Below, piece by piece: positions 35,690 to 50,297 of a stretch of 64,000 nucleotides of DNA. The first letter of the stretch is position 1; every line of letters begins with the position of its first letter. The notes under the pieces are model-generated. The model saw only the letters and a program-made list of their open reading frames with translations. It did not search any database and was not told the DNA's origin. The position numbers were made by a program, and so were the translations under genes. The stretch comes from Rhizophagus irregularis (taxonomy: Eukaryota > Glomeromycota > Glomeromycetes > Glomerales > Glomeraceae): the NCBI RefSeq assembly GCF_026210795.1, contig NC_089443.1:2170001-2234000 (forward strand), in the 5' to 3' direction.

Positions 35690-36354
35690 TCGTAAATTTT
35701 CGAAACGGAATATTACGCAGGTTTACAGTCTCGTAAATTTTCGAAATATTTCAACCGTAATATTACGCAGGTTTACAGTTTCGTAAATTTTCGAAATATT
35801 TTAACCGTAATATTACGCAGGTTTACAGTCTCGTAAATTTTCGAAATATTTCAACCGTAATATTACGCAGGTTTACAGTCTCGTAAATTTTCGAAATATT
35901 TTAACCGTAATATTACGCAGATTTACAGTCTCGTAAATTTTCGAAATATTTCAACCGTAATATTACGCAGGTTTACAGTTTCGTAAATTTTCGAAATATT
36001 TTAACCGTAATATTACGCAGATTTACAGTCTCGTAAATTTTCGAAATATTTCAACCGTAATATTACGCAGGTTTACAGTTTCGTAAATTTTCGAAATATT
36101 TTAACCGTAATATTACGCAGATTTACAGTCTCGTAAATTTTCGAAATATTTCAACCGTAATATTACGCAGGTTTACAGTTTCGTAAATTTGCAGAATATT
36201 TTGACCGTAATATTGCGTAAATCTTACGATATTGTAAACTTACGTAATATTTTAACCGTAATATCACATAAATCTTACGAAATTGTAAACTTACGTAATA
36301 TTTTGAAATTTTTCGAAATATTATGCCATAAACTTTCATAAACTTACAAAATCG
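35690..36354. repeat. Right subterminal array, 50-bp tandem repeat
   Basis: About ten copies with an exact 50-base period (35721, 35771, 35821 and so on to 36171), each containing TCGTAAATTTTCGAAATATT and CCGTAATATTACGCAG, followed by diverged copies up to the right terminus of the 9.7-kb element. Confidence 0.85.
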
Positions 36355-39451: not shown

Positions 39452-40314
39452 TGTTTAATTAAAATTAATTAAATGAAACTTATATTTTTATTGAGTTCTG
39501 TGGATGAGAACTATGGAATTACCTTGAATTCCGTTCTCTATTTATACAATTTTTATGCTACTTTCTATTCTATCTATATACTATCTTTTATGTTCTTTAC
39601 ATATTATCTTTGAACTATCTTTCTAATATACTTCTTTTATGTTCTTTTACATATTATCTTTGAACTATCTTTCTAATATGCTATCTATATTTTAAATACG
39701 CTATCTTTTAATATGCTATCTTATATATTATTTTATATGTTATCTTTTCTATTATTCAAATATTACATCGTAAAGAAATAATTTATAACCCATCTTTTAT
39801 GGTTGTGCTATCTTTTCTTTAAAATAATCTTCAAATATTATGTCGTAAAGATATAATCCATCTTTTGTGGCTGTGTTATCTTTTTATATATGTTCTTTTT
39901 AATATGTTATCTTTTATGTTCCATTTTTATACTATCTTTTCATATTATCTTCTATATTATTTTATGTTCTTTAGTCTTTCCAACATTATTTTATATATCC
40001 TTTTAATTCACTTTATGTGTTTTGCTTATAATCTATCTTTTGTGGCTTATAATTATTCTTTCTTATTGTTCTCATTGTTAAAGATTGCTAAGCCCCAATT
40101 GATCGACTCTATTTATCCTATTGGTTCTTTGTCAATCATTTGATAAATATTACATCATGTAGATCATTACTCTTCCTAAATGTTTAACCTTTTCGGCTAA
40201 TTATTTATCCATCCACGCCAATTCATAATTAATTTGTTCGTTCTTAATATTTGGTAATTACATTTGGCGATTAAATTTTATCATATTTTCATGCTTGATA
40301 TTCGGCCGTTTACA
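39452..40314 (-). repeat. 3' LTR
   Basis: Starts TGTTTAATTAAAATTAATTAA on the + strand and ends CGGCCGTTTACA. It matches 49374-50297 almost throughout but lacks about 73 bases near its left edge; the gap lies between short AATTAA repeats, which suggests slippage or recombination. Exact outer border is uncertain. Confidence 0.8.
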
Positions 40315-40330
40315 TTATCCCTCTCTTTGC
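40315..40330 (-). promoter_or_regulatory. Polypurine tract
   Basis: Read on the - strand GCAAAGAGAGGGATAA sits immediately upstream of the 3' LTR start (TGTAAACGGCC). Position and composition fit the plus-strand primer of reverse transcription. Confidence 0.7.
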
Positions 40331-40513
40331 TATTTGTGACCTCACAAATAATTTTAATAGAATCGAACTCGTGTCTTATCCATAATAATTTTAATTGAAT
40401 CGAACTCGGGTCTTATCGAATACCTCTTTTCCTCTAATTACTATTTTTGGTGTAAATCCCCTTCGATCGTAAAATTTCTTTAACCATTCTCCATTTTGTG
40501 GTGTTCTATATTT

Positions 40514-41737
40514 TTAGTCTTGTGTTCTTCTCCATTTCTCCACCTTTTTAAATACTTTTCTCCAGCTACTATTGTCATTTTTAACTTTTACTCGGCTGTA
40601 TCTTTTGGTATCTTTGTATACGCTCTGATTTTCTTCAAACATTTTAACCATGTCCAAATATTCATCCTTCTTTAATGTTGGGTATGATGATTTTTCCGTT
40701 TTCTTTGTTTCTCTTCCAATGTAATTTTCCAACATACGTCGCCATCTTTTTCTAAAAATATCACTATTGATTTATCTATTGTTTCTTTCAATCTGAATAT
40801 TTCTTTTTCCATTTCATGATTTCCATGTGGAGTAATTAATCCTCTGTCAAAACTTTTCGTCTTTTGGTAATAATATTCACAATATGGTGATTTGTCTAAA
40901 ATTATTATATCTGTATCTTCATCATATTCTAACATTCTTCTATTTATTTGTTCTACTACTTCTTTTCTAAATTTCCATTCTGTCTCCATCTTTGGTTCAT
41001 AAAATTCATCTTTATCTTTTCTTCTTCTTTTAAAAGTATTGAATCTTACTTTTAATCCTTGTTTTTCCCATTCTCCAATTAAATTTTGTACTATACTTGT
41101 TTTTCCCAATCCGTCTACTCCATCGATTATTACTATTTCTGGTTGATCCTCTACTATCTTTAATAACCTACTTAATGCGTCAGCATTCGTATTTTCTTTT
41201 CCCGATCTATGTATTACTTCAAAATTATATTGCTGTAATTCCATTACCCATCTTGCTCTTTTTCCTTTTGGTATCTTTGCATTCATTAACCCTTTTAATG
41301 CACTATGATCTGTTATTACTTTAAATTTTCTATCGATTAAATATTTATGAAAATGTTGAATTCCCCAAACTATTCCTAAACATTCCAATTCTGTTATCGG
41401 ATAATTTTCTTCTGCTGGTAATAAGCTTCTACTTGCATATGCTATTACTACTTCTTTTCCTTTTTCATCTTTTTGACTTAATACTGCATCTAGTCCTTTT
41501 CCTGATGCATCTGTTATTAATAAAAATTCTTTTTTCCAATCTGGATGTCGCAATATTGGATATTGTATTAACTTTTCTTTCAATTTCTCAAACGCTTCTT
41601 GTTGTTCTCTTCCCCAAATAAAAGGTATTCCCTTCTTTCTCAAATCACTTATTGGTCTTGCTATCTTTGAAAAATTCTTCACAAATTTTCTGTAATATGA
41701 ACAAAGTCCTAAAAATGATCTTACTTCTTTCACTGTT
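40514..41737 (-). CDS. Pol C-terminus: RNase H plus P-loop nucleotide-kinase-like domain
   Basis: After the nested hAT element the frame resumes (open from 41775) with the end of RT (RSFLGLCSYYRKFVKNFSKI), then RNase H with all four acidic positions visible (LLITDASGKGL, ELECLGIVWG, VITDHSAL, NADALSR). Only about ten residues later comes IVIIDGVDGLGKTSIVQ, a Walker A loop of the thymidylate/deoxynucleoside kinase kind, then IIILDKSPYCEYYYQK (DRS/DRY-like motif) and VIFLEKDGDVCW (LE.D..CW-like motif). A one-base shift in an A run near 40722 moves the rest to another frame (NYIGRETKK...DEYLDMVKMFE...VFKKVEKW), ending at 40514, as expected for the LID and C-terminal helices. Inferred role: phosphorylation of a deoxynucleotide, perhaps to feed reverse transcription. 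No integrase follows; only about 180 bases separate it from the LTR. Confidence 0.82.
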
Positions 41738-41745
41738 GTTGGTGC

Positions 41746-42965
41746 TAGTGTTTCGATCCGGGCAGAAACCGTCATCCGGATAAATTAAAAAAAATATCCG
41801 GTTTCTATCCGGATTATCCGACTCGGATAAAAATCCGGATATATCCGGGTAGAAACCGAAATCCGGATAAAATTATTTAAATTTTTTTTACTGTAGATCA
41901 TTTTTAATAAATAAAATTCGTGGCATTCATTTAATTTAATGTGGCATTTAATTAATTAAATATATGGCATTTAATTAACTACTAAATTCGTGGCATTTAT
42001 TAAATTTATGACAATTAAATTTCGTGGGATTGATATAAAAATTTATTTATAGCATTTATTTTTTTATTTATAAATTTAAGTACAGTTAGTTAATGTAGTC
42101 CTAAGCCCTAACCAAAATAAATAAATACTGTAATCATTTTCTTGGATTTTTTTGTAATTTCACTTGAAACATATTTTTGAATAGTGGAAAATAATTCATA
42201 AAATTATGGAAAACAGTAACGTTCAAGATTATATTACTCTAAGTGAAAATGAAGAGTCCAGTGATGAAGTTACAGAAATTACTCTAATACTAAAAAAGAG
42301 GATGACCTAAAAAATTATCTAGGACACTTGGAAAATAAAGGATGATAAGTGCTAGTAAAATAAGTTAACTATACTTGAATTAACAAGTCAAATATCAAAT
42401 AATCCAAATCCCTTTAAACTAACTACTACAATGACTAAACCACAAACAAAAGTGAGTTGGGTATGGGAATATTTTGTTAGAAAACAAAGTGAAAATGGAG
42501 AAATACGTGCATATTGTCAGTTTATATCAGATAATGGAGAAAATGTACAAAAAGTTATAAATATGATGGATCTGTTGTTAAGCATGGAATAACACCACCC
42601 ACAGAACACATTATATCTGAAAACAAATCAATAATAAATGCCGCGAATTTAATATATTAAATTCAAATTATGTGACAAATCTTGTGACATAACTTAAAAT
42701 TTTTCCTTGTGGTTAACGAATAATTAAAACAATAAAAAAAAATATTTAAAGTAATCATATATAATATTTTAACTCATCTGAAAATATATGAAATGTTATG
42801 ATTTAAATTTTAAAATTTTTTTTTATTTTTTATCCGGATTCCGGGTCAATCCGACCATTTTTTATCCGGATATTTATCCGGGTAAAAACCGTAATTATCC
42901 GGATACCTAAAAAAAAAAATTATCCGGGTTTATCCGGTTGAACCCGGCAACGGATCGAAACACTA
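41746..42965 (+). mobile_element. Nested non-autonomous hAT element (1220 bp)
   Basis: Termini TAGTGTTTCGATCCG and CGGATCGAAACACTA are perfect inverted copies, flanked by the 8-base duplication GTTGGTGC (41738-41745 and 42966-42973). Eight-base duplication and TAGTG ends define hAT. Subterminal TATCCGG/CCGGATA motifs fill both ends. The element interrupts the pol gene of the LTR retrotransposon; removing it with one duplication keeps pol in frame, so it arrived after the retrotransposon. Confidence 0.92.
42207..42592 (+). pseudogene. hAT transposase N-terminal relic with BED-type finger
   Basis: Two short frames: one from ATG 42207 (MENSNVQDYITLSENEESSD) ends quickly; another from ATG 42431 reads KVSWVWEYFVRKQSENGEIR then AYCQF, the start of a BED zinc finger, before a stop at 42592. 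The second cysteine and everything downstream, including the catalytic core, are missing, so the element cannot move itself. Confidence 0.6.
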
Positions 42966-43861
42966 GTTGGTGCTTTCATTTCCTTTATCTTTTCTATCTT
43001 TTTATCGTCTGGCCTTAATCCATCATTTCCTACTATATGTCCTAAAAATTCTATGTTTCTTTCCAAAAATCTACATTTCTTTAATTTTATTATTAAATTA
43101 TTCTCCTGTAACTTCTTTAATACTTTTTCCACATGTTCCATATGGTCTTTTAAATTTTCTGAATATATCATAATATCATCGATATATACTACCACAAAAT
43201 CGTTTATGTATTCTTCTAATATTTCATCCATTAATCTTTGAAATGTTGCTGGTGCATTAGTTAAACCGAATGGCATTACATTATACTCAAATAATCCTTT
43301 TGAACATACAAATGCTGTTTTTTCTTTGTCTTCTTCTTTCATTTCTACTTGATTAAATCCTGCCGCTAAATCTATACTTGAAAACCATTTTGCTTTTCTA
43401 TATTTGTCTAACAATTCATCCATTCTTGGTAAAGAAAAACTATCCATTATAGTTATCTTGTTTAACTTTCTATAATCAATACAGAATCTATATTTTCCCG
43501 TTTTCTTTCCTGCTAATGTAACCGGTGAACTCCATGGACTTTTTGATTTCCTTATCCTTCCTTGTTTTAATAATTTATCTACTTCTTCGCTTATAAATTT
43601 TGCCTTTTCATCTGTTTCTTTGTATCTTCTTTGCTTTATCGGTTCTACCCCCTCTTTTATTTTTATCTCATGTTGCGCTGCTTTTGTTCTTCCTTCTATT
43701 TCCCCGTCGTATTCTAAAATATCTTGGTATTCTAATAGTAATTTTACCATGTTTTCCCAAATTGGTTCTTCTACTTTCCCTATACTTAATTTTTGCATAA
43801 ATTTTCCACTTGGTTCGAGCATCTTTTCCGTCTCTCTCTCTTCAGAGCCAAGACTTTCTAT
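42966..43861 (-). CDS. Reverse transcriptase of the LTR element
   Basis: Open from about 43861 and cut at its 3' end by the hAT insertion. It shows the Ty3-type series: KSPWSSPVTLAGKKTGKYRF, CIDYRKLNKIT, SSIDLAAGFNQVEM, MPFGLTNAPATFQRLMD and the catalytic YIDD (VVVYIDDIMIYS), then NIEFLGHIVGNDGLRPDD. All catalytic aspartates are present. It is one frame away from the protease part: the upstream frame ends with TAG at 43860-43858 and the RT frame has a TAA at 43864-43862, leaving no real overlap, so a one-base mutation or error is more likely than programmed shifting. Confidence 0.92.
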
Positions 43862-44361
43862 TTAAAATTCTGGTGCATTCTGAATACCTCTCCTTCATCG
43901 TTACTTTCATATTCTTCATCGTCCTCGCTCTCCTCACTTTCATATGCTACTTCTCTTTCATATCCTACTGGAATTGTTATTATTTCTCCCTGTTCTTCTA
44001 TTCTTAAGGTATGATCTTCAAAATTTATTTTTGCATTATACAACTTCCATATATCATTTCCCAAAATTAGATCCTCTTCTTCCGAATCGATTACTTCAAC
44101 TTCTTTTAGTATCTCTAATTCATCTTTGTATCTCAAAGTTATATTTGCCTTTCCTAATGCTGCTATCTTTTACCCATTTGCTATTGTGCATCTAAATTTA
44201 CTTTTTCCAAATATAGGTATATTCAATCTTCTTCTTAATTTATCTGTTATCACACTTACTGCTGCTCCGGTATCTATTATTACATTCACTAATTGATCTT
44301 CAACTTCTAATTCCGTTCTCATTGCTGTAATTCTTTTTTCTTCATTTTTCATGGTCCCCAC
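43858..44361 (-). pseudogene. Aspartic protease region with one in-frame TAA
   Basis: In the same frame as gag, after its TGA stop. VNVIIDTGAAVSVITDKLRR carries the DTGA active-site triad of retroviral-type aspartic proteases. A TAA at 44172-44170 interrupts it; the same frame continues (LGKANITLRYKDELEILKEV, then DLILGNDIWKLYN) into an acidic linker ending at 43858. Confidence 0.75.
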
Positions 44362-44364
44362 CGA

Positions 44365-44376
44365 GTGTAGTCAATT
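44365..44376 (-). promoter_or_regulatory. Gag stop in leaky TGA CTA context
   Basis: The gag frame ends AAT TGA CTA CAC. The protease follows in the identical frame with no other start needed. TGA followed by CTA is the best-known stop-codon readthrough context, so gag-pro readthrough is plausible; the alternative is a chance nonsense mutation. Confidence 0.45.
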
Positions 44377-47300
44377 TTTCTCGTTTATATTTCTTAGTCT
44401 ATATATTCCTTCTCTCAGTTGCTTATGATACTTAGTATTCTCATTTATTAATTGTCCATACGTTATATTCGCTCTACAATTTTTCACGTCTCCCACAATA
44501 TCATAAGGTGGTATTCCGTCAGTTAATCTCAGTCCATATTCTCTGGGCTTTCCTGTTCCCGGTGACTTTGTTCTAGCCCAATTTCCAGATTCGTCTTGCC
44601 GCATTCCAGGGTAAAATAACTTGTCCCCTTTTGTGAACATTGGTTTATAAAATCTTCCGTCTTTTGTCATGGGTCGACGACCATAATTATAATCTTCTGG
44701 TCCTATTGGATTATCCCAATTTTGACTATCTCTGTGTACATTATTTTGTTCTGTCCTTTCGGGCATATATCTTGGTGTTGTTGTTCCACTTGGTATTTCT
44801 CTATCATCCATTCTATTTCCCGCTTCTCTTAATTCTTCTTGTAAATTTCCTTCTTCATTATTATTCTTATATCCCACTATTGGACTCGTTCTTCTCGTTT
44901 GTCTTCTCCCTTTTACTGCGTTATCTTTTGCGTATAATTCATTATAATAATTTAATTCTCTATCTTCATAATCATCGTAATAACCTTGTGTATAATACAT
45001 TTCACCGTATTGTGGTTCCCTATATTCATATCCATCGTAATCATATTCTTCTTGATCGTCATATTCTTCTATCATATTTACTCCTACATTCCTTCTTTTC
45101 TCTGGACACTCTCTTGAATAATGACCAGCTCTACCACATGTAAAGCATGTCGGTGCTCCTTTTTGGAATGACTGATTTCTTTGAATTGGTTGATTACTTT
45201 GTATTGGTTGGTTTCTTTGTGGCAATCGCCTATAACTCTGACTCGCTAAATTTCTTAATCTTTCATTCTCATCTTCTAACATCTTAATTTGTAACTTCGC
45301 AAAACTGCTTGCTAATTCATCTACACTTACTTCTTTATTTCTTACGTTCCCTTGAATAATGGGTTCTTGTCTTCTTTGTTCATCATTAATTTCTTTTGGT
45401 TGTACTTTATCTGTTAATGCTTCTAAACCTCTTTCCACGTTTTTTGCTATCTGAAATGCTGCATTTAAATCTGCTGGATTTCCCATTACTACGTCTTTAG
45501 TAAAATCCGGTTTTAATCCTCTATTAAAAATTCTCTTTTGCTGATTTGCTGCTACTGCTGCATCACCTCCCGCTCTCTTTAACATATATTTAAATCTCAT
45601 AAGGTATTGAGTTACATTCTCGTTTCCCTGTCTAATCTTTTCTAATTGTTCTAGCCATCTATCTTTAATTTCATCACTTGCATACTTTCCAATTATTCTT
45701 ACTCTTAATCTTAAATTATGATCTCCATTAACATTCCAATCGGTAATATTTATTCCTTCAGTCTTTAACCAATCTGCTGCTCCTCCCATTAATCTTGCTT
45801 TTGCTATTCTAAATCTTTGTGCATCATCATTCCCTAAACCATTCGCTGTAAATGTCTCCTCAAATTTATCTACCCATTCTTCTGGGTCTTCCCCACTGGT
45901 ACCGTAAAATGCTGGTATTTCCACAATAGCTCCCCTATTTGCGTTCAAATTTCCTATCGCATTAGTATTCGCTTGAACTTCTCCTTGTAATCCTGTCAAT
46001 GTTATTGGTGGTACCGCTAAATTGTTCCAATCTGCCCCAATATCATGACCATACATAGTATTCGTTACTGCTCTTAAATCTGTTCTGATTTCATCTCTTG
46101 TTACTGCCATTGTTATCTTTGGTTTTATTGGTGGTGCTGGTATTATCGGTATTATAGGTACTTCCTTTAATTTTTTATTTTTCTCTTTACTTTTTGGTTC
46201 TTTACTTGAGCCAATTTCGGGTCCTTTTATATCCTCTTTTACTTCATCTTCATCATCTACTGAATTTTCTTTTTCAATATCTTTTTCACATTTTATGCAA
46301 GTTTCTTTTCCGATTTTAAATTCTTTCTTTAATCTTTCAATTTCACATCTTTCGCATTCTTTTGTGTTTTCAACTCTCCATTGTAATATTTGTTCATCTA
46401 ATTCTTTATCTTCAAGATTCCATATTGTTAAATATTTCTTCATAAATTCATATGTTGTTATTATCTTTGCAGTTACTCCAAATTTTCTTATTCTTTCAAT
46501 TTCTGTTATTTCTACATCATAACCCATTCTTTTCAAATCCTTTCTAATTATTTCTTTGAATATCTTTGTTGTTTCTGTTTCTTCAACGTTATTAGATTTA
46601 TTAGATTCATCAGATTCCTCATCTGATATTTCTTCATTTTTACTAATTGGTAAATTTTCTTCTTTCCCATCGTCTGTCTCTGTTACAGTGTAACTTCTTG
46701 GTTTGTCATCACTATCTGTTTCATCTACATTTAATTGCTCAAACCCCCTAATCTTATCATAAACTTTTTCAGTTATTTCTTTGCTAATTCCCCAACCGTG
46801 TTCACGAACTCTTATGTGCATTGTGTGCAACATTAATCTAATCTTCTGTTTGAACGCTTCTATCTTTTCTGTTGACTCATCTTCTTTTAATTCAGCTTCT
46901 TCATATAATATATTTTTGTATCTTCTAATAGTGCTATCTTTACATTCTATAAAATTTGTTATAGCTTCTTTATACCATTCATAAAATTCCCTAAATCTTA
47001 TATTTACATCCCAATCTTCCAAAATATAACCATATCTTATTAATTCTTCGTTCCCTATCAATCTGTCTATTGTTTCATCTTCTTTATCATTTTCTATACA
47101 ATCTCTCACGATTACTATTATTATTATCTTTAATCCTTTTTCTCTTAATACTGGTTGTTTCAAGTATCTTATCGATTCGACCATTACATCTAATGCATCT
47201 CTAGTCCTTCCTTTTGTATAATTATTTCTTTCTTCACTATCTATACTTAATAAATTTAATAGCGCTCTTATAGTTTCTGCATTATAATCTTTTATCGTAT

Positions 47301-47496
47301 ATTCGAATTTTTGCAATATTTTCCAAAATTTCTTGAAAACTTCTGGTATATCTCTTATCAGATAACATATTTCACATGTTATATTTTCTCCTCTTAATTC
47401 GTCTATATCTATATTTCCGATATTTTCATCATGTCTTAATTTGTGATTTTCGTAATCAACTCTCCAAGTTTCGTACCATTCCATTGTTATAATCAT
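44371..47496 (-). CDS. Gag polyprotein with long N-terminal extension
   Basis: 1041 residues, uninterrupted. The first 500 residues are charged and helix-rich (MEWYETWRVDYENHKLRHDE...) and include a C-x2-C...C-x2-C group (ECERCEIERLKKEFKIGKET then CIKC, around residues 395-420); I do not recognise this part. A proline-rich joint (PIIPIIPAPPIKP, about residue 465) leads to the usual retrotransposon gag core (PAFYGTSGEDPEEWVDKFEE; WLEQLEKIRQGNENVTQYLM) and a CCHC zinc knuckle (CFTCGRAGHYSREC, about residue 785), followed by a Tyr/Asp-rich tail. It should form the particle that packages element RNA. At more than twice the usual gag length, the N-terminal extension may be an extra domain. Confidence 0.88.
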   Translation of the reverse strand: MIITMEWYETWRVDYENHKLRHDENIGNIDIDELRGENITCEICYLIRDIPEVFKKFWKILQKFEYTIKDYNAETIRALLNLLSIDSEERNNYTKGRTRDALDVMVESIRYLKQPVLREKGLKIIIIVIVRDCIENDKEDETIDRLIGNEELIRYGYILEDWDVNIRFREFYEWYKEAITNFIECKDSTIRRYKNILYEEAELKEDESTEKIEAFKQKIRLMLHTMHIRVREHGWGISKEITEKVYDKIRGFEQLNVDETDSDDKPRSYTVTETDDGKEENLPISKNEEISDEESDESNKSNNVEETETTKIFKEIIRKDLKRMGYDVEITEIERIRKFGVTAKIITTYEFMKKYLTIWNLEDKELDEQILQWRVENTKECERCEIERLKKEFKIGKETCIKCEKDIEKENSVDDEDEVKEDIKGPEIGSSKEPKSKEKNKKLKEVPIIPIIPAPPIKPKITMAVTRDEIRTDLRAVTNTMYGHDIGADWNNLAVPPITLTGLQGEVQANTNAIGNLNANRGAIVEIPAFYGTSGEDPEEWVDKFEETFTANGLGNDDAQRFRIAKARLMGGAADWLKTEGINITDWNVNGDHNLRLRVRIIGKYASDEIKDRWLEQLEKIRQGNENVTQYLMRFKYMLKRAGGDAAVAANQQKRIFNRGLKPDFTKDVVMGNPADLNAAFQIAKNVERGLEALTDKVQPKEINDEQRRQEPIIQGNVRNKEVSVDELASSFAKLQIKMLEDENERLRNLASQSYRRLPQRNQPIQSNQPIQRNQSFQKGAPTCFTCGRAGHYSRECPEKRRNVGVNMIEEYDDQEEYDYDGYEYREPQYGEMYYTQGYYDDYEDRELNYYNELYAKDNAVKGRRQTRRTSPIVGYKNNNEEGNLQEELREAGNRMDDREIPSGTTTPRYMPERTEQNNVHRDSQNWDNPIGPEDYNYGRRPMTKDGRFYKPMFTKGDKLFYPGMRQDESGNWARTKSPGTGKPREYGLRLTDGIPPYDIVGDVKNCRANITYGQLINENTKYHKQLREGIYRLRNINEKN

Positions 47497-49373
47497 TTAT
47501 CCAGAATCTCAATCGGATTCCTCTCTCTATATATATATTTCACTCTTATCATTTCTATTTTTTTGATCTTCTAAACATTCTTTTATCTTTAGATAGATTA
47601 CTTCTTTCAATCTTTAAATTCCATCTTTCAATTTTATATATTTACTACGCCATGTTTTACTATTAATTTTTACTGCGCCTTAAAATTTCAAAAATTTTTC
47701 TAAGTCCACGATCTTCTCAGGCTGCGGAGGTTTTTACTGCGCCCTAAAATTTATCTTTTATCACCGATTTCCATAATTTCACATATCACATCTTTTCGTC
47801 ACCGTGATTCATAATTTCACTTATCACATCTTTTTGTCACCAAGATCCGTAATTTCACATATCACAAACTCCAAAATTTTTATAACTTTTAAAGTTTGCG
47901 AATTTCTAATCTTTCTTGTCATCCACATAAATCCTTCTTGCTATATATCCTATATTATATAAATCAATCTACGATACACAAAATGTTGTTCTTTTCAGAT
48001 AAATGTCCTTCTTTTCAAATAAATATTCTTTTTCAAATAAATGTTCTTTTTAAACAAATGTCCTTCTTTTCAGATTTTACTCTATTATTAAATACTGCAC
48101 GTAATGTTCATTATACGGCTTGTTAATGTGTAAATATCCTTCTATGTTATCTTCTTTTAACGGAACATTGTAATGAAAACGTCACCTAGCTATCGCACTA
48201 CACCAGGAACCCTCATCTGAAATGTAGCCTAGGACCTGTAACAATACAACGTATCCGTCTTTTCCTTCTTCGTTGGCCGACTTATCTCTCAACGGGTGAA
48301 TCTAACCTTCCAAAATCCAGTTTCAAAAGTCATCAGCTATCCTCGAAACTCATCTAAACCAACTTTCTTAAATTGGTGGACCTATACTGGGCTTATCTCT
48401 ATCTTTTTCCCATTGGGTAAAAGCATGATAGTTTACAGGTTTGTCCCATTTTATTCTTTCAATGTTTCTTGATAGTAGGTGTCTTCACAATTTTCATTCC
48501 CCGTCCCTAAAGCAATTTGCGCATTATTGAGCTGGGTATCCAGATTTGACGTAACCCATACGTTATAATCTTTAATGTCGAAGAATAAAAATTTTCCAAT
48601 CTAGAGCATTTATCCAAAATTCAAACTCAAAGGTAACCCATACCACACAGATGAACCCCAGATAATACATTGGTGTTATCCCATTATTAATCTTTATTCC
48701 AAAATTCATCTTTCGCTTCCCCATCTCCTTATGAAATTTCTCAGGTACTTTATTCCCGAAAGAAACATTCTTGTGCTTTCTATCGATTAAGTGATTACTT
48801 GCACAACTTCAAACTCCAATCTTTCACCTTTTCAAGTTTTTAACTCGTTAAATCCTTATTGATTTATTGGTTCCTTTTGAACTCGTCAAAACCTGAAATC
48901 TAAAAATAAATTCTAAAATAAAATATTGATTAATAATACCTATCAGTGACTTACTAACGAAATTAAATTTTCATATTCATTATAATAATAATCATGTGAT
49001 GATGATCATTTCCTTTCTTGCGAGCATGCACCATATGAGATCCCCCAATTCCCCCTGTCATCAATTTACAAGGTTGCCACATCGAACGGGCATTCTCATG
49101 GTCGAACGAACGAACAAATGAACAAACGAACGATTAAACGAACAAGCGATTATCAATAACATAATTAACAAACAATATACAACAACATTCTTGGTTCACA
49201 ATATAAAATAGCGTTAGTAATATAAAACGTTGAACGATATAAAATAAAATCAACTTCTCTAAATTTTCCCCAAATTATATCCACTTTTTCCTTTAATTTC
49301 AAACTTCGATAGCTCTCGCTACAAATTATTACTTTTCAAAAACATATATTTAATTCATCTTAAAATTTTCATT
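47497..49373 (-). other. 5' leader of the LTR element
   Basis: About 1.9 kb between the 5' LTR and gag with no long frame. It contains a three-copy repeat of about 46 bases (47755-47880; TAATTTCACATATCACATC), a repeat built on CTTTTCANATAAATGTCCTT (47990-48075) and a GAAC/AACG-rich stretch at about 49105-49150. A tRNA primer-binding site next to the LTR was looked for and not recognised. Confidence 0.5.
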
Positions 49374-50297
49374 TGTTTAATTAAAATTAATTAAGCGAAC
49401 ATTAATTAAAGTTTAGGGCGAACCTATTACCTTTAATTAACATTAAACTTCATTAACAAATAATTAAATGAAACTTATATTTTTATTGAGTTCTGTGGAT
49501 GAGAACTATGGAATTACCTTGAATTCTGTTCTCTATTTATACAATTTTTATGCTACTTTCTATTCTATCTATATACTATCTTTTATGTTCTTTACATATT
49601 ATCTTTGAACTATCTTTCTAATATACTTCTTTTATGTTCTTTTACATATTATCTTTGAACTATCTTTCTAATATGCTATCTATATTTTAAATACGCTATC
49701 TTTTAATATATATTATTTTATATGTTATCTTTTCTATTATTCAAATATTACATCGTAAAGAAATAATTTATAACCCATTTTTTATGGTTGTGCTATCTTT
49801 TCTTTAAAATAATCTTCAAATATTATGTCGTAAAGATATAATCCATCTTTTGTGGCTGTGTTATCTTTTTATATATTTTCTTTTTAATATGTTATCTTTT
49901 ATGTTCCATCTTTATACTATCTTTTCATATTATCTTCTATATTATTTTATGTTCTTTAGTCTTTCCGACATTATTTTATATATCCTTTTAATTCACTTTA
50001 TGTGTTTTGCTTATAATCTATCTTTTGTGGCTTATAATTATTCTTTCTTATTGTTCTCATTGTTAAAGATTGCTAAAGTAATTGATCGACTCTATTTATC
50101 CTATTGGTTCTTTGTCAATCATTTGATAAATATTACATCATGTAGATCATTACTCTTCCTAAATGTTTAACCTTTTCGGCTAATTATTTATCCATCCACG
50201 CTAATTTATAATTAATTTGTTCGTTCTTAATATTTGGTAATTACATTTGGCGATTAAATTTTATCATATTTTTATGCTTGATATTCGGCCATTTACA
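49374..50297 (-). repeat. 5' LTR
   Basis: Longer copy of the LTR, starting TGTTTAATTAAAATTAATTAA and ending CGGCCATTTACA on the + strand. Differences from the left copy are few apart from indels, which suggests a fairly young insertion. It should carry the promoter for the - strand transcript. Confidence 0.8.

Follow-up and report, generated by a model that had tools for sequence, protein, structure and literature searches.

A Ty3/Gypsy-type lineage of retrotransposons in the Glomeromycota has probably gained a thymidylate-kinase-like (TMPK-like) domain between RNase H (RH) and integrase (IN) and kept it as a regular domain of pol, with the integrase retained. The lineage came into view through a minus-strand element in a 64,000-nt stretch of the Rhizophagus irregularis genome (hereafter the window; G000:C15:2170001-2234000), and its relatives were sought in the whole genome (147 Mb, 32 contigs). 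In this element the open reading frame (ORF) 40672-41784 (minus strand) encodes RNase H (PF17917, 1.7e-36; PF17919, 1.4e-35) and, as a preliminary description of this DNA had noticed, runs on in the same frame, about ten residues past NADALSR, into a P-loop stretch, IIDGVDGLGKTS, followed by DKSPYCEYYYQ and FLEKDGDVCW. The domain order is reverse transcriptase (RT), RNase H and nucleotide-kinase-like domain, and no integrase core is present before the 3′ long terminal repeat (LTR).

The preliminary description took this order to mean that the lineage had swapped integrase for a kinase. That claim does not hold: an integrase match, which the description itself had named as evidence that would refute it, lies downstream of the kinase in all seven long relatives fetched (L035-L039, picked for their open frames, and L053 and L072, added later), and the kinase is therefore no replacement for integrase. 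Pfam, run on L035 and L038, found Integrase_H2C2 at 1.2e-21 and rve at 9.6e-15 in the former, and at 1.6e-17 and 9e-11, respectively, in the latter. L035, taken with L040, shows the Ty3/Gypsy layout gag-protease-RT-RH-kinase-IN between LTRs identical at 1098/1098 positions, with CCGG duplicated in the flanks, whereas the window copy falls short of the full layout through its missing integrase core; the Ty3/Gypsy label itself is based on the Pfam matches and on the order of the domains. The kinase is joined to RNase H in L035, L036, L037 and L039. L035 has 54 nt between kinase and integrase, L037 about 140 nt and L036 nearly 500 nt, with a 118-residue frame inside this last gap; in L038, kinase and integrase occupy one frame without a gap.

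The window element comprises the following features. LTR boundaries were set by comparison with other copies and then read in the window.

49036-50297, minus: 5′ LTR, TGTAAA...ATCTCA, 1262 bp
44371-47496, minus: gag frame, 1041 aa, with a CCHC knuckle (Pfam zf-CCHC, 2.4e-6); stop codon TGA at 44371-44373, then CTACACTCGG
43858-44169, minus: protease remnant (DNA match to the L035 protease frame, itself PF13975 at 3.4e-9)
42974-43861, minus: reverse transcriptase, first part (PF00078, 3.4e-45)
41746-42965, no strand given: hAT-like insertion between RT and RNase H, foreign to the element (15-bp terminal inverted repeats, 8-bp duplication GTTGGTGC)
41158-41745, minus: end of the RT connection and RNase H (Pfam, frame comparison)
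40517-41157, minus: nucleotide-kinase-like domain with a frameshift at about 40726 (ORF reading, Pfam, genome search)
40501-40505, minus: junction of the ~1.16-kb deletion that took out the integrase core (comparison with other copies)
40394-40507, minus: integrase C-terminal remnant, 38 residues, 92% identity to the L040 tail (copy comparison)
40315-40330, minus: polypurine tract GCAAAGAGAGGGATAA (named by position and composition)
39463-40314, minus: 3′ LTR, truncated at its 3′ end, ~39463 (copy comparison, read in the window)

The element copy in the window is dead, a derivative without its integrase core, as seen from the insertion between RT and RNase H, the kinase frameshift, the 1.16-kb integrase deletion and the truncated 3′ LTR. 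Against the first description, RT and RNase H are split by the 1220-bp insertion, the kinase is interrupted by a frameshift at about 40726 and resumes in another frame to about 40517, and the LTR limits have been revised. The earlier statement that no integrase lies between the LTRs stands for the core, since Pfam found none in the six main frames of that interval, but later comparison revealed the C-terminal remnant. Relative to L035 and L040, some 1160 bp are missing from the copy, between the end of the kinase and the tail of the integrase. A 120-bp query across this junction matched in full at the window only among the best 40 of 109 candidates, in a search that passes over very common words. 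The two LTRs share stretches of 294 and 275 nt at 96 to 99% identity, and truncation of the 3′ LTR leaves the target duplication of this copy unreadable. Retrotrans_gag matched the gag frame at 7e-5, slightly below the Pfam cut-off, and no Pfam protease match was found in the element's own frames. The insertion, which has terminal repeats TAGTGTTTCGATCCG and which we take to be of hAT type from the length of these repeats and of its duplication, appears to be non-autonomous or decayed.

Identity of the kinase-like domain

By profile, the domain after RNase H reads as thymidylate-kinase-like. PHROG 761 (thymidylate kinase) aligned over the whole domain in three related element copies (E values of 7e-12 to 5e-14). 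Across the kinase family, PF02223 matched 37 of 42 members at an E value of ≤0.01 (best, 8.5e-8), and the deoxynucleoside kinase profile PF01712 matched 8 of 42 (best, 1.6e-4). Precomputed annotations list PF02223 for several relatives, but it falls below its cut-off in the window, L035, L036, L037 and L038. In the profile search proposed at the outset, the kinase part of the window copy, taken by itself, gave weak matches to PF01712 (2.7e-4; 21.2 bits, with the cut-off at 27) and PF02223 (6.6e-3), both below cut-off. The stretch is nevertheless no chance resemblance, because it has 150 scored matches in the genome (of 219 candidates, some being pieces of single copies), many in open frames of 600 to 779 residues, besides the whole-domain match in three copies. 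Walker A and a D-K..Y..YQ motif are kept across an alignment of 42 kinase sequences. Structure prediction, likewise proposed at the outset, gave a confident model of the relative P0004 (predicted local distance difference test score [pLDDT] of 92), which fits thymidylate and deoxynucleoside kinases equally well; among its best 50 fold matches, the top ones are all TMPKs or nucleoside kinases. The original reading of a nucleotide-kinase-like domain is supported, and the fold matches leave thymidylate and deoxynucleoside kinases tied.

Several points weigh against a working TMPK. The TIGR00041 dTMP-kinase equivalog reached at best 30.9 bits against a cut-off of 83 in six proteins scanned, the DR motif of TMPKs reads DK in the element kinase, and the fold matches of the P0004 model to TMPK and to deoxycytidine kinase are tied. 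Moreover, the model represents a relative other than the window copy, the phage TMPKs in the PHROG comparison were chosen from weak matches of the same family, and enzyme activity is a prediction. The DK residues and the missing equivalog match would also suit a P-loop kinase fold put to another use: the domain could be a polynucleotide kinase, could serve RT and integrase as an ATP-dependent module for assembly or targeting, or could be noncatalytic. Some weak matches to other P-loop families fit this as well, as does the arrangement in lineage D, where the kinase is joined to integrase and not to RNase H. Sequence searches of the PDB with the kinase returned mainly P-loop matches such as FtsY. 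We regard such a role as unlikely, though deserving of weight, given that the whole-domain match is to phage thymidylate kinases, that Walker A and the D-K..Y..YQ motif persist through the alignment and that, among the 50 fold matches listed, the top ones are all TMPKs or nucleoside kinases.

Loss of integrase and movement of integrase-less copies

We defined close copies as the 57 kinases at least 88% identical to that of the window, the window included. An integrase match lies within 3 kb downstream in 44 of them; the first call of 13 integrase-less copies came from a search that scored the best 117 of 485 candidates. On reading the DNA, we found a broken integrase in L006, L050 and L052 and moved these out of the set, leaving 47 of 57 with an integrase match, intact or broken, and 10 without (the window, L013, L026, L044, L045, L046, L047, L048, L049 and L051). 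The expectation of further RT-RNase H-kinase elements without integrase was borne out for this minority and not for the remainder. The ten copies represent five junctions, shared by L013 and L026, by L045 and L046, and by L047, L048, L049 and L051, with L044 and the window each having its own. Copies with a common junction lie on different contigs, and the class of four sits in unrelated 3′ flanks.

Some integrase-less copies have jumped, as judged from perfect 4-bp duplications in L047 (CCGA on both sides; LTRs identical at 1232/1234 positions) and L048 (CCGT on both sides). In L013 the LTRs are identical at 1095/1097 positions and the flanks, TCGT and TAGT, differ at one of 4 bp. Flank readings are incomplete for L026, L049 and L051, where one side or LTR end was not found (the 5′ side for L049 and L051), and the duplication readings leave aside L044, L045 and L046 (5′ side). 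LTR ends and 4-bp duplications match those of the integrase-bearing copy, which indicates a normal integrase, and the integrase-less copies likely moved with integrase supplied in trans. Of the earlier suggestion of integration in trans or by another route, this much survives for the subset of ten, two of them with perfect duplications, whereas the lineage as a whole has integrase. Exchange of integrase for kinase across the lineage, with integration by a different route, would account for the missing core in the window and in 9 of the 56 other close copies, most of which keep a long RT-RH-kinase frame; with integrase in 47 of 57 close copies and in all seven long copies fetched, and with the same ends and duplications in both kinds of copy, we consider it very improbable.

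Within the class of four, three pairs are 93 to 95% alike, no nearer to each other than to the integrase-bearing L035/L040, and common junctions could be recurrent rather than inherited; the exact breakpoint that the four share favors one origin. For the integrase gap of L013 and L026, a GT...AG intron removed by splicing would fit, and the direct repeat AAAGAGGTATT explains it equally well. In lineage A, deletions between similar stretches of 11 to 17 bp have removed integrase repeatedly (L035 8267-8908 and kin; L045-L051). In L053:1231-2742 (minus strand), a coiled-coil-like frame and a separate damaged kinase frame precede the integrase; RNase H is matched some 2.5 kb upstream of this kinase.

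Selection, lineages and origin of the kinase

The kinase is under purifying selection, as are RT and integrase. With 26 kinase, 16 RT-RH and 16 IN copies of lineage A pooled, the ratio of nonsynonymous to synonymous variation (pN/pS) came to 0.062, 0.042 and 0.071, respectively. Loci were hand-chosen (27 kinase, 16 RT-RH and 18 IN), with broken, partial and some full-length ones excluded, and internal stops led to the removal of L007 (kinase) and of L009 and L029 (IN). The kinases of lineages A and B are separated by a nonsynonymous divergence (dN) of 0.067 and a synonymous divergence (dS) of 0.84. Retroelements do pick up genes, but a captured passenger fragment without function is scarcely credible here, with a kinase pN/pS of 0.06, like those of RT and IN, and retention in lineages only 54 to 61% alike in the kinase.

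Kinase lineages in the genome range from 54 to 96% alike in this domain, which seems to have been exchanged between lineages as a cassette. Compared with L035 and L037, L036 (lineage B) pairs an A-like kinase (86% identity to A and 61% to C) with a C-like RT-RH (63% to A and 74% to C) and a C-like integrase (N-terminal part, 102/172 against A and 138/170 against C). In an RT-RH tree limited to this genome, with five other RT-RH sequences included, the five kinase-bearing rows form one side of a branch (92/97), adjoined by the kinase-less element L079. Single acquisition is supported but not proven by this tree: the branch, present in 92% of bootstrap trees, comes in slightly below the 95/80 mark, a further point on the opposing side.

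Protein searches with the kinase gave 97 matches (E ≤0.01), 113 matches plus one marginal (0.54), and 35 matches; named sources are Rhizophagus irregularis, R. clarus, R. diaphanus and Glomus cerebriforme, and the named relative P0003 is 98% identical to the L035 kinase. In P0110 (393 aa), the same kinase family is joined to a NUDIX domain (PF00293), without RT fusion. Searches for a donor outside the fungi found no relative at an E value of 1e-3 with A3 in viral-contig and genome-contig collections (81 and 46 pattern matches) or with P0119 in the genome-contig collection. Against phages, P0004 gave three weak matches (E values of 0.3 to 4), P0019 gave 64 records (best, 2e-4) and P0038 gave no match. 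The phage thymidylate kinases of PHROG 761 share the whole-domain profile match and motifs with the element kinase, but they are stand-alone genes of weak similarity (best tblastn E value 2e-4, most >0.1), whereas the element kinase is part of pol and has DK for DR. At L071:1485-2495 (minus strand), a stand-alone 336-aa frame resembles deoxynucleoside kinase and is the genome's best PHROG 761 match; as a host donor it was set aside, being not close when judged by eye.

Gag stop codon and a possible role in nucleotide supply

In L035-L039 and in the window (44366-44373, minus strand), the TGA that closes gag is followed by CTACA, and protease shares the gag frame. The pattern TGACTACACTCGG occurs at 103 genomic places, the kinase-less L079 being among them, and the reversed pattern at 3. 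TGA CTA is a context for stop-codon readthrough; TGA CTACACTCGG is likely such a site, and readthrough would probably yield Gag-Pro. L079 resembles the kinase elements in its gag-TGA-protease layout and in the order of RT-RH and integrase, but its spacer between RNase H and integrase is merely 195 nt and holds no kinase.

We propose that the TMPK-like domain entered the spacer that separates RNase H from integrase and that it may be an active (deoxy)nucleoside monophosphate or deoxynucleoside kinase. Made together with RT (lineages A to C) or with integrase (lineage D), it would sit in the particle and would raise the supply of deoxynucleoside triphosphates (dNTPs), most likely dTTP, for reverse transcription, akin to the role proposed for retroviral dUTPase; some integrase-less sister copies were presumably mobilized by integrase provided in trans. 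The chances seem to us about even that this whole account holds, namely, that pol has captured an active TMPK-like kinase as a standard domain, which makes dNTP precursors beside RT, that kinase-bearing derivatives without integrase spread in trans, and that this is the first such retroelement lineage described in the literature searched.

Reverse transcription relies on the host dNTP pool. Non-primate lentiviruses have dUTPase in this same slot between RT and integrase. In the literature consulted, dUTPase is the nucleotide-pool enzyme reported in LTR elements and retroviruses. Retroviruses and the LTR elements of fungi and rotifers have it built into pol at a position that varies and can fall between RT and integrase (PMC5408684, PMC2864245), and it is the nearest analogy (see also PMC4531489). 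Those elements likewise place a nucleotide-pool enzyme within pol, but dUTPase hydrolyzes dUTP, whereas the domain described here belongs to the phosphate-adding P-loop kinases, a different enzyme and fold. We found no retroelement with a nucleotide kinase in the literature searched, which largely excludes subscription papers, so absence is unproven; in the accessible parts of two papers on R. irregularis transposons, kinases are mentioned solely among expanded host gene families (PMC8647823, PMC11075540). A kinase that purifying selection maintains across a large family of fungal elements would show a step of dNTP synthesis to be able to enter pol, and offers an enzyme open to direct testing; some "thymidylate kinase" annotations in environmental proteins and Rhizophagus gene sets may be transposon proteins.

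Near the 5′ end of the lineage B copy L036 lies a 354-aa frame (oriented 1028-2089), which resembles a Tc1/mariner transposase. The window also contains a tandem repeat with a 50-bp unit at 36000-36249.
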